A stretch of DNA of 64,000 bases from Blastopirellula retiformator. GTDB lineage: Bacteria; Planctomycetota; Planctomycetia; Pirellulales; Pirellulaceae. Below, in pieces: positions 7,370-63,058 of this stretch. The notes beneath the pieces are model-generated. The model searched no databases, was not told where the DNA came from, and worked only from the letters and a program-made list of their open reading frames with translations. The stretch's first letter is position 1, and each line of letters starts with the position of its first letter. The stretch is from positions 62,001 to 126,000 of the forward strand of contig NZ_SJPF01000003.1 of assembly GCF_007859755.1 (NCBI RefSeq), in the 5' to 3' direction. Made by a program: the position numbers and the translations under genes.

Positions 7370-7527
7370 TTCTCGTAGGGCAGGCCGCGCCTGCCGAATG
7401 CAAACGGCCTGCCGTCTTGTTGACTTGCAAGCGCAAAGTTGGGTTACGCTACGAGGCGCCCAAGCTACCCTTGCCAACGCTCTTGATGTCTAGCGTTTTG
7501 GCCTTCGGCAGGCACGGCCAACCGCAT
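7370..7527. other. Intergenic stretch with a GGCAGGC inverted motif
   Basis: Holds a GC-rich motif (GGCAGGCCGCGCCTGCC at 7380-7396) and a related CGGCAGGCACGGCC at 7506-7519. No gene is seen. It separates pqaA from the miniature element at 7528. Confidence 0.35.
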
Positions 7528-7688
7528 TAGAGCGGTTTTTCTCCATCTGTATCGTTCTGGCTGGTTGCGGCCGCGCTGGTCGGCGTTGACCTGCATCGAC
7601 GAATCTTGAGGATTCGCCTGCTTCGGTCGCCTTGACCAGCTTGCCTCACTAACGCCAGAAACGCTACAGCTATCAGAAAAACGCTCTA
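7528..7688 (+). mobile_element. Miniature inverted-repeat element, family M1, 161 bp
   Basis: Begins TAGAGCGGTTTTTCT and ends AGAAAAACGCTCTA, so the ends are near-perfect inverted repeats, flanked by TA that looks like a 2-bp target duplication. The same 161 bp recurs at 41194-41354, a 115-bp deleted form at 23831-23945 and a half copy at 578-636. It encodes no protein. TA duplication is typical of IS630/Tc1-mariner transposases, so a transposase of that type may act in trans (inference). Its right-hand TA lies within the stop codon of the pseudogene that follows. Confidence 0.85.
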
Positions 7689-21794: not shown

Positions 21795-21806
21795 CCACTC
21801 TATATG

Positions 21807-22142
21807 GTTAGCCCAGAAAGCTCCGCTTTCTGGGCCGACATCGTCGACAGGAGGCATCAATCCGCGGTGGGATTATCTGCGGCGGTTCCCTAGCAGTCCG
21901 TTGATTTTCTCGACGGACTGCGTGATCGCATGGATGCGATCCCAAAATAGCGACGTAAGTCGTTATTTTGCGAGCCGCGAAGAGCTACGCTCTGAGCCTG
22001 GCGAGGTTGGAAAATGCCACGATGGCATTTTTCAACAGGCAGCTAGTCGTTTGAGCCGGCGCACCTCCGATCTTTCTTCTCTACCTCGGCCTGATGCCTC
22101 CTGCGGCTGCGCCGCCCCGAAAGCGGAGCTTTCGCGGCTAAC
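21807..22142 (+). repeat. Repeat family A, copy 1 (about 183 bp) carrying an inserted M2 element
   Basis: Ends are GTTAGCC (21807) and GGCTAAC (22142), with longer imperfect terminal inverted repeats that include GGAGGCATCA and TGATGCCTCC. A perfect 10-bp hairpin CCCAGAAAGC/GCTTTCTGGG (21812-21834) stands at the left end. The central CTAG is duplicated around an M2 element (21890-22046); without it the unit is 183 bp. Compare copy 2 at 23746-24041. Not coding. Confidence 0.85.
21890..22046 (+). mobile_element. Miniature inverted-repeat element, family M2, with CTAG duplications
   Basis: Bounded on both sides by CTAG (21890-21893 and 22043-22046). Inside, the left end CAGTCCGTTGA and right end TTCAACAGGCAG are imperfect inverted repeats. 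A second copy of equal length is at 62902-63058. A 4-bp CTAG target is typical of IS5-group insertion, so an IS5-type transposase may mobilise it (inference). It has a short open frame but this is not conserved as a gene. Confidence 0.85.
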
Positions 22143-22169
22143 CAATTTGGGTGCGCCAATCTAGGTGCG

Positions 22170-22955
22170 CTATGCCGAGCAAACCACGATCCAGCCGCTG
22201 GCCCGCAATCCGCCGAAGAGCCAGCTCGCTCGCAGGCGGTTTTGTCGATTCATCGCCAGTGGCACGACGCGGTCGATTTCCAGCCCCGGGGCTTTCAGGG
22301 CTCGCAGTAGCTCGCCACGACTGAAGACGTGCAGGAAGAAGTTCGGGATGTTGCGGTAGTGGTAGTACTTGTCGCCCCGCTCATGCCACTTCCGCACATA
22401 CGAGCGAAACAGGTGCAGCATCACCCAGCTGAATCCGCTTGGCTCAAACAGGTTGAACCAAAAGTTGTGGACGTGCACCACGAACTTGCCGCCCGGCTTG
22501 AGGATTCGTTTTACGTGGGTGAGGAACGCGGCGCGGTTTTCGGCGCCATGGATCATGCCCAGCGTGCTGAAGAGACAGATCGCATGATCGACCGAATTGG
22601 TTTCGATCGCACTTAGGTCGACCAGGTTGGCCTGCACGCACGTAATATCGAGATCGTCGAGCTTCGCCTTCTCGGCGACGACCCGCAGCATCTCGGCCGA
22701 CAGATCAACCGCCAGGCCCCGATTGCCGCGGCGGACGAGCGGAACGAGCGCCCGAGCCGTTCCACAGCCAAGATCGGCGACTAGGCCGGTAGGAGGAATT
22801 GACTCGGCGACGACCGCTTCGTCAAACTGAAACAGGTCGCTGAAGGCGAAGTATTCGTCGTAGTCATCCGCGATCGCCGGCGACTCGACGTAATCCATCG
22901 TGCCGCGGGTTACGCCGCTGGGAAGCTGCCATCGAGGTTGAGATTTGCCGGCCAT
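22170..22955 (-). CDS. Class I SAM-dependent methyltransferase
   Basis: 261 residues. The SAM-binding motif I VADLGCGTARALVPL (near 58-72), acidic VDLSAEML (motif II) and LVDLSAIETNSVDHAICLF, then VKRILKPGGKFVVHVHN, are the standard order of the class I Rossmann fold. The N-terminal MDYVESPAIADDYDEYF is typical of small-molecule methyltransferases (methyltransferase type 11/25). Substrate unknown. Its stop lies 28 bases from repeat A copy 1. Confidence 0.88.
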   Translation of the reverse strand: MAGKSQPRWQLPSGVTRGTMDYVESPAIADDYDEYFAFSDLFQFDEAVVAESIPPTGLVADLGCGTARALVPLVRRGNRGLAVDLSAEMLRVVAEKAKLDDLDITCVQANLVDLSAIETNSVDHAICLFSTLGMIHGAENRAAFLTHVKRILKPGGKFVVHVHNFWFNLFEPSGFSWVMLHLFRSYVRKWHERGDKYYHYRNIPNFFLHVFSRGELLRALKAPGLEIDRVVPLAMNRQNRLRASWLFGGLRASGWIVVCSA

Positions 22956-23036
22956 AGACGGCGATTATAAGCGGCCGAGGGTGGTTTCGATCAGGGGGCG
23001 TCGCCTGCGGACGCGTCGCTTGTTAGGCTAATTTGC

Positions 23037-23750
23037 ATGACTGGCAAACCGCCCCTGGGGCTCTTTATCACTGGCAATAACACCGAAGTCGGTAAGACCT
23101 ACGTATCGGCCCTGATCGCGCGGCAGATCGTCGCGTCCGGAATTCGGCTGGGGGTCTACAAGCCGGCGGCCAGCGGTTGTCGGCTGGAAGCGGGGGGCTT
23201 GGTCGCTGAAGACGCGGTACAGCTGTGGGAAGCGGCCGGGCGTCCGGGGACACTGGATGAGGTTTGCCCGCAAAAGTTCGCCGCTCCTCTGGCGCCCCAT
23301 CTGGCGGCTCGAGCCGAAGGGAAAGAGCTAGACGCGGGGCTGCTTCGCCGCGGGGCCGAAGTCTGGGCCGATCGCTGCGACCTGCTGTTGGTCGAAGGGG
23401 CTGGCGGCTTGATGTCGCCGATGTCGGACGCGGAATACGTCGCCGACCTAGCTGCCGATTTCGGCTATCCGCTGATCGTTGTCGCCGCGAATCGGCTGGG
23501 TGTGATCAACGAAACGATGCAGACGCTGATCACCGCATCGGTCGTCAAAGGGGGCAGTCTGCAAACCGCCGGGGTAATTCTGAACGACCTCGCCCCGCAG
23601 CCCGATGATGTGAGCCGAGACAGCAACTTCGAGCAGCTCCAAAAACGCTGCGAGCCGCCGATGCTGGCCCACGTACCGTATGCCGCACCGCAGTTGCCGC
23701 AAGAGATCGATTGGGTGGCGCTGGCGCAGGGGAAAATAACCGACGGTTAG
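23037..23750 (+). CDS. bioD: Dethiobiotin synthetase
   Basis: 237 residues. ATP-dependent closure of the ureido ring of dethiobiotin from 7,8-diaminopelargonate and CO2, the step before biotin synthase. The P-loop GNNTEVGKT (11-19), LYKPAASG-like VYKPAASGC with the catalytic Lys, LVEGAGGLMSPM and VVAANRLGVINET are all family motifs. No other bio gene is adjacent. The stop codon TAG (23748-23750) is formed by the first bases of repeat A copy 2, so the repeat has inserted at, and now supplies, the end of the gene. Confidence 0.93.
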   Translation: MTGKPPLGLFITGNNTEVGKTYVSALIARQIVASGIRLGVYKPAASGCRLEAGGLVAEDAVQLWEAAGRPGTLDEVCPQKFAAPLAPHLAARAEGKELDAGLLRRGAEVWADRCDLLLVEGAGGLMSPMSDAEYVADLAADFGYPLIVVAANRLGVINETMQTLITASVVKGGSLQTAGVILNDLAPQPDDVSRDSNFEQLQKRCEPPMLAHVPYAAPQLPQEIDWVALAQGKITDG

Positions 23751-24041
23751 CCCCGATAGCTCTCGCTATCGGGGCCGACGAAGTCGGCAGGAGGCATCAA
23801 TCCGCGCCTGGATTGTCGGCGGTGGTTGCCTAGAGCGGTTTTCTTCAATCTTTAGTGTTCTGGCTGGTTGCGGCCGCGCTGGTCGGCGTTGACCAGCTTG
23901 CCTCACCAACGCCAGAAACGCTACAGCTATCAGAAAAACGCTCTAGTCGTTTGAGCCGGCGCACCTCCGGCATAGCGCACGACCTCGGCCTGATGCCTCC
24001 TGCGGCTGCGCCGCCCCGTAAGCGGAGCTTTCGCGGCTAAC
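23746..24041 (+). repeat. Repeat family A, copy 2 (about 183 bp) carrying an inserted M1 element
   Basis: GTTAGCC (23746) to GGCTAAC (24041). Left hairpin CCCCGATAGC/GCTATCGGGG (23751-23774) differs from copy 1 by two compensatory base-pair changes. The centre is split by a 115-bp M1 element (23831-23945) at the same CTAG where copy 1 carries M2. After removing the insert the unit is 183 bp. It begins inside the bioD stop codon. Confidence 0.85.
23831..23945 (+). mobile_element. Miniature element M1, 115-bp deletion derivative
   Basis: Same ends as the 161-bp copies (TAGAGCGG ... CGCTCTA). It lacks exactly 46 bp, and the missing segment is bounded in the full copies by a TTGACC direct repeat, which fits slippage or recombination between those repeats. 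Confidence 0.85.
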
Positions 24042-24210
24042 CGGGAAGGTGTGCCGGGATTGCGCCTCGGGCTACTACGAGCCATAATGCTCGAAAAGAT
24101 CCCCCGCATTTCCCGAAACTGCCGCGAACAATGGCTGGCGCAAATCGCCGCGCCGGGTATCATAGGGGCTACGCCAACGCCACTTGTTTTCTCGCCAGGA
24201 GGGCAATCCC

Positions 24211-41193: not shown

Positions 41194-41354
41194 TAGAGCG
41201 GTTTTCCTCCATCTGTATCGTTGTGGCTGGTTGCGGCCGCGCTGGTCGGCGTTGACCTGCATCAACGAATCTTGAGGATTCGCCTGCTTCGGTCGCCTTG
41301 ACCAGCTTGCCTCACTAACGCCAGAAACGCTACAGCTATCAGAAAAACGCTCTA
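41194..41354 (+). mobile_element. Miniature element M1, full 161-bp copy
   Basis: TAGAGCGGTTTTCC to CGCTCTA, same length as the copy at 7528 with few differences. Flanked by TA on both sides. It lies between the barrel gene and the terminator of the DUF1598 gene. Confidence 0.85.
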
Positions 41355-41502
41355 GTAGGGTCGCGACCCAGCACAATGCGGTCAGAAGCACAGGAAAGGT
41401 CGACCGCTGGGTGAGATTCGCTACGGCTTGAGCCGGCCTACAACACAACTTCGCGAGACGCATTACATGGCCACGCAAGGCCGAGGCCATGCCACCCGCG
41501 CA

Positions 41503-51984: not shown

Positions 51985-52398
51985 ATGTCACGATTTCGCA
52001 GATTATCACATGCCATTTGGCACTGCCAGTATCACTTAGTTTGGGTTCCCAAGTATCGCTACCGAATTCTGAGCGGTCCGATCAGTCATGAAGTGGAACT
52101 TTGCATTCGGGCGTTTTCGGAACGGCTCGGAGCGGAGATCGTCGAGTTGAATATTCAGCCCGACCACGTCCACCTGTTGGCGATGGTGCCGCCTAAAGTT
52201 TCGATTTCGGAGTTCATGGGAACGTTAAAAGGTCGAACTGCCATCCGCGTTTTGAACAAGTTCCGGCATTTGAAGCAAAAACCCTATTGGGGTAATCACT
52301 TCTGGGCTCGAGGCTACTGTGTCGACACGGTTGGTTTGGACGCGGAGAAAATCCGCAAGTATGTGAAGTACCAAGAGGCCCAGGAAAAACGTAAGTAA
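51985..52398 (+). CDS. tnpA: IS200-type HUH transposase
   Basis: 137 residues, the usual length of IS200 TnpA. Makes single-strand cuts at hairpin ends. The HUH motif is His61-Val-His63 (QPDHVHLL) and the catalytic tyrosine is probably Tyr126 in KIRKYVKYQ. YHLVWVPKYRYRIL near the N terminus is typical. It seems intact. The ribosome binding site is sequestered by the stem at 51933-51984. Confidence 0.92.
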   Translation: MSRFRRLSHAIWHCQYHLVWVPKYRYRILSGPISHEVELCIRAFSERLGAEIVELNIQPDHVHLLAMVPPKVSISEFMGTLKGRTAIRVLNKFRHLKQKPYWGNHFWARGYCVDTVGLDAEKIRKYVKYQEAQEKRK

Positions 52399-62901: not shown

Positions 62902-63058
62902 CTAGCAGTCCGTTGATTTTCTCGACGGACTGCGTGATCGAACGGATGCGATCCCAAAATAACGACGTAAGTCGTTATTTTGCGAGCCGCGAAGAGCTAC
63001 GCTCTGAGCCTGGCGAGGTTGGAAAATGCCACGATGGCATTTTTCAACAGGCAGCTAG
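62902..63058 (+). mobile_element. Miniature element M2, copy 2, with CTAG duplications
   Basis: Same 157-bp form as 21890-22046, CTAG at both ends (62902-62905, 63055-63058). The restored target would read ATCGCTAGCGAT, a perfect palindrome. The remaining bases between 62724 and 63256 show no gene. Confidence 0.85.

Follow-up and report, generated by a model that had tools for sequence, protein, structure and literature searches.

Two copies of repeat A, in a window of 64,000 nucleotides from the Blastopirellula retiformator genome (the whole stretch of DNA analysed), are interrupted at the same CTAG by different miniature elements, M2 in copy 1 and M1 in copy 2. The two inserts have separate target duplications, both elements favour the site YTAR, and copy 1 has an M2-free ortholog in a sister species. 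It is likely that two abundant YTAR-preferring elements separately entered the CTAG of tolerant REPIN-like spacers. Independent insertion of unrelated elements into a homologous CTAG, as proposed in a sequence-only reading of the window, is upheld by the 4-bp duplication and IS4-like parent of M2, the TA duplication and different ends of M1, and the M2-free copy, but the hot spot drawn from it is not established, since most copies of repeat A are without a spacer insert. The double hit is neat yet mostly ordinary, because both elements prefer such a spot.

The two copies of repeat A

The flanks of the two copies match as had been noticed, with 82% identity over 88 bp on the left (E 2e-19) and 90% over 101 bp on the right (E 1.5e-34), and this likeness is more than chance because further copies of each of repeat A, M1 and M2 are spread across the genome. 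The pair had been located correctly apart from its limits: set by the ends GGTTAGCC...GGCTAACC, each copy extends one base further at either end (Table 1), and with the flanks joined at the duplicated bases both measure 185 bp rather than about 183 bp. The interrupted CTAG is indeed the same in both, inside the common string CCTAGTCGTTTGAGCC; CTAG stands on either side of M2, and TA on either side of M1. Among 24 aligned copies, the two spacers are mutual nearest relatives (78% identity; 62% for the next-nearest relative of copy 1), and the copies, 1.9 kb apart, form one subfamily whose spacer carries CTAG. At the start of copy 2, GGTTAG (23745-23750) provides the TAG stop of an open reading frame at 23037-23750 with an AAA_26 domain.

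Table 1. Positions of repeat A, its arms, the two inserts and their target duplications in the window
Feature	Position	Strand	Basis
Repeat A copy 1, REPIN-like, 185 bp without insert	21806..22143		flank comparison, genome recurrence
Copy 1 left arm, two hairpins	21806..21860	-	profile match, stem covariation
Copy 1 right arm, two hairpins	22092..22143	+	profile match, covariance model match
CTAG, M2 left target duplication	21890..21893		sequence reading
M2, IS4-like miniature derivative	21894..22042	+	right ends genome-wide, full-length parent with same ends
CTAG, M2 right target duplication	22043..22046		sequence reading
Repeat A copy 2, 185 bp without insert	23745..24042		flank comparison
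Copy 2 left arm	23745..23800	-	profile match, covariance model match
Copy 2 right arm	23991..24042	+	profile match, covariance model match
TA, M1 left target duplication	23831..23832		sequence reading
M1, miniature element, ends GAGCG...CGCTC	23833..23943	+	genome matches, 400-kb sample
TA, M1 right target duplication	23944..23945		sequence reading

Repeat A as a REPIN-like family

A covariance model of the arms, built from 58 arm sequences, gave 91 matches in the genome of the window (G000; 6.2 Mb in 10 contigs, 97% complete). Pairing of 82 of them gave 35 two-armed copies and left 12 one-armed ones, a procedure that misses copies whose arms are split far apart; the remaining nine matches came from seven single-hairpin remnants, two of which were matched on both strands. 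Repeat A occurs in all four genomes of the genus, and its presence elsewhere, on which the sequence-only reading depended, is thereby confirmed for this and for related genomes. Solo 35-bp hairpins GGTTAGCC...GGCTAACC, consisting of the outer half-arms only, were found at L139, L247, L248, L249, L250, L251 and L019 (291-325) and look like collapsed copies.

Each arm is about 54 bp long with two hairpin stems, and the two arms are inverted around a spacer. The stems covary strongly: for an arm structure derived from the same alignment, 97.6% of cells are paired and the covariation score is 0.272. None of 500 shuffles reached this score (mean 0.090), and slid versions scored 0.008-0.052. The spacer lies between genes and is near-constant in length and poorly conserved in sequence: it measures 74-77 bp in 26 of the 29 copies without a spacer insert (58, 68 and 82 bp in the other three), and the mean identity at its centre is 44%, versus 80.5% and 86.5% in the arms (24 aligned copies).

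A 171-aa open reading frame with repeat A on both sides scored 112 bits against the RAYT model NF047646 (cut-off 80). This model had 18 matches in the genome, four above cut-off, and only this one has repeat A arms in the flanks examined. A contig scan with the protein recovered one distant relative, from a Terriglobia MAG, at 36% identity. An open frame in the window (52105-52371) matched the same model weakly, at 29.9 bits.

REPINs have inverted palindromic ends, a less-conserved spacer of fixed length, compensatory changes and a linked RAYT, according to Bertels and Rainey (2011, PMC3116915). Repeat A likewise has an inverted pair of palindromic, hairpin-capable ends, a spacer fixed in length and less conserved than the ends, compensatory changes and a RAYT gene flanked by the repeat, and it is therefore a REPIN-like family of known kind with unusual two-hairpin arms. 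It differs from the elements described there in the length and double hairpin of its arms and in having tens rather than hundreds of copies; moreover, its arms start by eye with GGTTAGCC, so that the GTAG tag at the palindrome foot of the GTAG REP superfamily is absent, for which reason the name REPIN-like is used. Linkage points to the resident RAYT as the agent that probably spread repeat A. In REPtrons/TIRtrons, members of other repeat families lie on the flanks of RAYT-like genes, and R. baltica is named as one of the genomes in which these genes and repeats abound (Di Nocera et al. 2013, PMC3733652). The arrangement here is alike in that members of a repeat family border a RAYT-like gene, but differs, as far as the descriptions go, in that entire two-armed elements border the RAYT on both sides.

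Origins of M2 and M1

Right ends of M2 (16-mer, at most one mismatch) occur 299 times in the genome, corresponding to about 300 copies, nearly all of them outside repeat A; another such copy lies in the window at 62902-63058. Full-length elements of 1709 bp with M2 ends were found at L199 (1050-2758) and L197 (942-2650), and M2 corresponds to parent positions 1-134 and 1682-1709, approximately the first 134 and last 28 bp with the interior deleted. M2 is an internally deleted miniature (MITE) of a resident IS4-like element, whose transposase scored 215 bits against the IS4_1 model NF033592 (cut-off 115; three residues read X) and kept, by eye, the YREK motif. Target duplications are about 10 bp in the IS4 family and 4 bp in IS701 (PMC2266710). 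The parent resembles the former family in score and YREK motif, but does not show the duplication of about 10 bp: exact 4-bp duplications were found at 24 of 30 M2 loci, and 4 bp also at L197, L199 and L207. It shares this length with IS701, but an IS701-type transposase was likewise rejected, IS701 models reaching 21.9-26.9 bits versus cut-offs of 150-250. A literature search found no paper combining the IS4 family, IS701 and YTAR. The 1265-bp element at L207 (731-1995), which has the ends of M2 and is bordered by TTAA on each side, is probably a shortened M2 parent. At L248 (G000:C1:686000-686700), two right ends of M2 form a short palindrome that adjoins a solo repeat A hairpin.

M1, with the ends GAGCG...CGCTC, has at least 49 genome matches at E<=0.001 (40 of 138 candidates scored), and the 10 copies in a 400-kb sample extrapolate to roughly 150 (about 155) in the genome. 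Of 30 M1 loci examined, 29 could be parsed, and at 26 of these the element stands between two TAs, a TA target duplication as in IS630 elements. The IS630 transposase domain DDE_3 (PF13358) had no match in G000, which is 97% complete, and the control found it in 3 of 14 genomes; nor was an M1 parent found among 23 DDE_Tnp_1 loci, and it is possible that G000 has lost it. Further M1-like copies lie in the window outside repeat A, at 578-636, 7528-7688 and 41194-41355.

A common target preference

Both elements favour YTAR. The 30 loci read for each were the best-scoring matches rather than a random draw. The 24 exact M2 duplications comprised 11 CTAG, nine TTAG, two CTAA, one ATAG and one GTAG, YTAR thus accounting for 22. 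A separate count of exact 15-mer M2 ends followed by YTAR gave 185 (a different denominator from the 299 above), and the 100 of these listed carried 33 CTAG, 41 TTAG, 23 CTAA and 3 TTAA. When the empty sites of M1 were rebuilt at the 26 loci with TA on both sides, all 26 were YTAR (CTAG 10, CTAA 9, TTAG 6, TTAA 1). Because M1 and M2 share this preference, a shared site in two copies of repeat A is likely. M1 and M2 also lie within or adjoining each other at 4 of 30 M1 loci and 2 of 30 M2 loci.

Order of events

Forty genomes were searched, that of the window included, and three others of the same genus (G001, G002 and G003) were read at the locus. The sister species G002 has repeat A at the place of copy 1 without M2, which indicates that M2 arrived after copy 1; this ortholog has no CTAG and is truncated on its right side, and it is therefore not an exact empty site. 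Repeat A is absent from the place of copy 2 in G002, and from both places in G001 and G003. Another spacer of G000 that holds M2 is that of L011; the G002 ortholog of this copy, L118, is free of M2 and reads CCTAG at the corresponding place, and the flanks of the two are 81% and 88% identical.

A single insertion would offer another history, in which repeat A was duplicated locally and the insert exchanged afterwards. The nearness of the two copies in spacer sequence and in position would suit it, but M1 and M2 differ in their ends, each has its own exact junction duplication, exchange would require crossovers inside 4 bp, and G002 has no repeat at the place of copy 2. Exchange of inserts is accordingly disfavoured, and we regard this history as very improbable. 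According to the separate-insertion account, repeat A would have been spread by the resident RAYT, as its linkage suggests; with copy 1 in place, an IS4-like transposase may have put M2 into its CTAG, and the insertion of M1 into copy 2, again at the CTAG, may have been the separate work of another YTAR-using transposase. That both copies are hit at one site would then reflect a target preference common to two abundant elements, together with a presumed tolerance of the dispensable spacer.

Occupancy of the spacer site

The sequence-only reading held that mostly empty copies, together with M1 and M2 spread without preference, would speak against a hot spot, and this is found in part: 29 of the 35 two-armed copies are without a spacer insert, and M2 lies mostly outside repeat A. 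The six long spacers belong to copy 1 (M2), copy 2 (M1), L011 (M2), L134 (M2 at GTAG), L020/L142 (another repeat-like insert) and L241 (an ORF-bearing stretch). Five of the 12 one-armed copies also carry something: the spacer holds M2 in L256 and a different insert in L255, an element lies at the edge of the truncation in L240 (M2) and L244 (M1), and M2 sits in the terminal TTAG of L238; M2 also occupies the terminal GGCTAACC of the two-armed L022/L090. Counted by eye, a YTAR at spacer positions 84-90 is filled in 4 of 12 copies (copy 1, copy 2, L011 and L256) and empty in eight (L008, L010, L016, L017, L019, L022, L026 and L242); the filled site L136/L256 is without a left arm, and its homology is judged from the sequence right of CTAG.

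Other spacer contents deserve mention. At L241 (162-628; G000:C6, about 351061-351527) the spacer is longer by about 280 bp, which include a short ORF (82 codons before the stop); it looks like one copy with cargo because both arms have the same unusual stem. The spacer inserts of L142 (G000:C1:1238259-1238590; GTAGGTTGGGT...ACCCAACA-like) and L255 (G000:C1:286687-; GTAAGGTGGGT...ACCCACC-like) are hairpin-rich; L176 has matches to parts of each, and window 7424-7468 to part of the L142 insert. We guess that they perhaps represent another REP family.

How often other sites are hit bears on the hot-spot reading, in which some property of the REPIN (supercoiling, a bound protein, cruciform extrusion or RAYT nicking) would attract different transposases to the CTAG of the spacer. 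In 400 kb, with genes delimited by a crude gene caller, 278 intergenic YTARs were empty and 21 (at least one non-genic flank) to 26 (all) were filled, so that with a background of 7-9% (21/299 or 26/304) filled spacer sites are expected somewhere. The 4 of 12 homologous sites exceed this background (Fisher p 0.010-0.019, post hoc), but only with the two window copies included: without them the count is 2 of 10 (p 0.17-0.22). Over all spacer YTARs it is 4 of 22 (p 0.08-0.13), and the two end YTARs are filled in 2 of 68 (p 0.13-0.28). The excess, which may reflect a modest true preference for the spacer site, is suggestive at best. Among the 150 of 233 arm matches listed for the three sister genomes, 49 pairs had spacers of 49-79 bp and hence no insert, a comparison that takes no account of the M1/M2 load there and leaves 52 unpaired rows whose partners may lie outside those listed. 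Precedent favours the hot spot, REPs being known insertion targets, but the many empty copies, the sister pairs and the copy-to-copy differences in CTAG pairing tell against it, and we hold it to be rather unlikely.

Exposure of the site by hairpins, which had been offered as a possible cause of a hot spot, is not supported, as the CTAG lies in the variable spacer, outside the conserved arm hairpins. In predicted single-strand folds, set to DNA parameters with a possible silent fallback to RNA parameters, the CTAG would be unpaired in copy 1 (0.92-0.96) and mixed in copy 2 (0.20-0.55) and in two empty copies. The predicted folds of these four copies disagree on CTAG pairing, and hairpin exposure was rejected on that basis. 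Just two cases of an element inserted at the end of an arm came to light (L022/L090 and L238). The common YTAR preference is a simpler account.

Precedent and implications

That REPs serve as insertion targets, even for two elements at a single point, has been published before. Tobes and Pareja (2006, PMC1525189) report that ISPpu9 and ISPpu10 share one point of insertion in a REP, and that ISPsy8 and ISRm22 insert at a REP symmetry axis. The present case is similar in that two different mobile elements occupy one point of a REP-type repeat, but differs from what is described there in that the elements are miniature, the inter-arm spacer is hit and the site is a general YTAR; REP-specific recognition is not indicated. 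Our literature search, covering titles and abstract openings, found no account of repeat A, M1 or M2 themselves, which is no proof of absence. A bolder reading is speculative and in our judgement improbable: the near-fixed-length spacer of this REPIN with two-hairpin arms would attract insertions about 4-fold more than the remaining intergenic YTARs do, and such spacers would be docking sites at which unrelated transposons that target YTAR, and even a stretch with an ORF, accumulate at little host cost.

Three mobile systems of one genus have left nested traces at the locus that can be put in order: a RAYT-linked REPIN with unusual arms, an IS4-like element that has a miniature form in high copy number and makes an atypical duplication of 4 bp, and the TA-duplicating M1. 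A striking double hit can come from a common four-base target preference, and, if the modest excess at the spacer site is true, REPINs would shelter other transposons.
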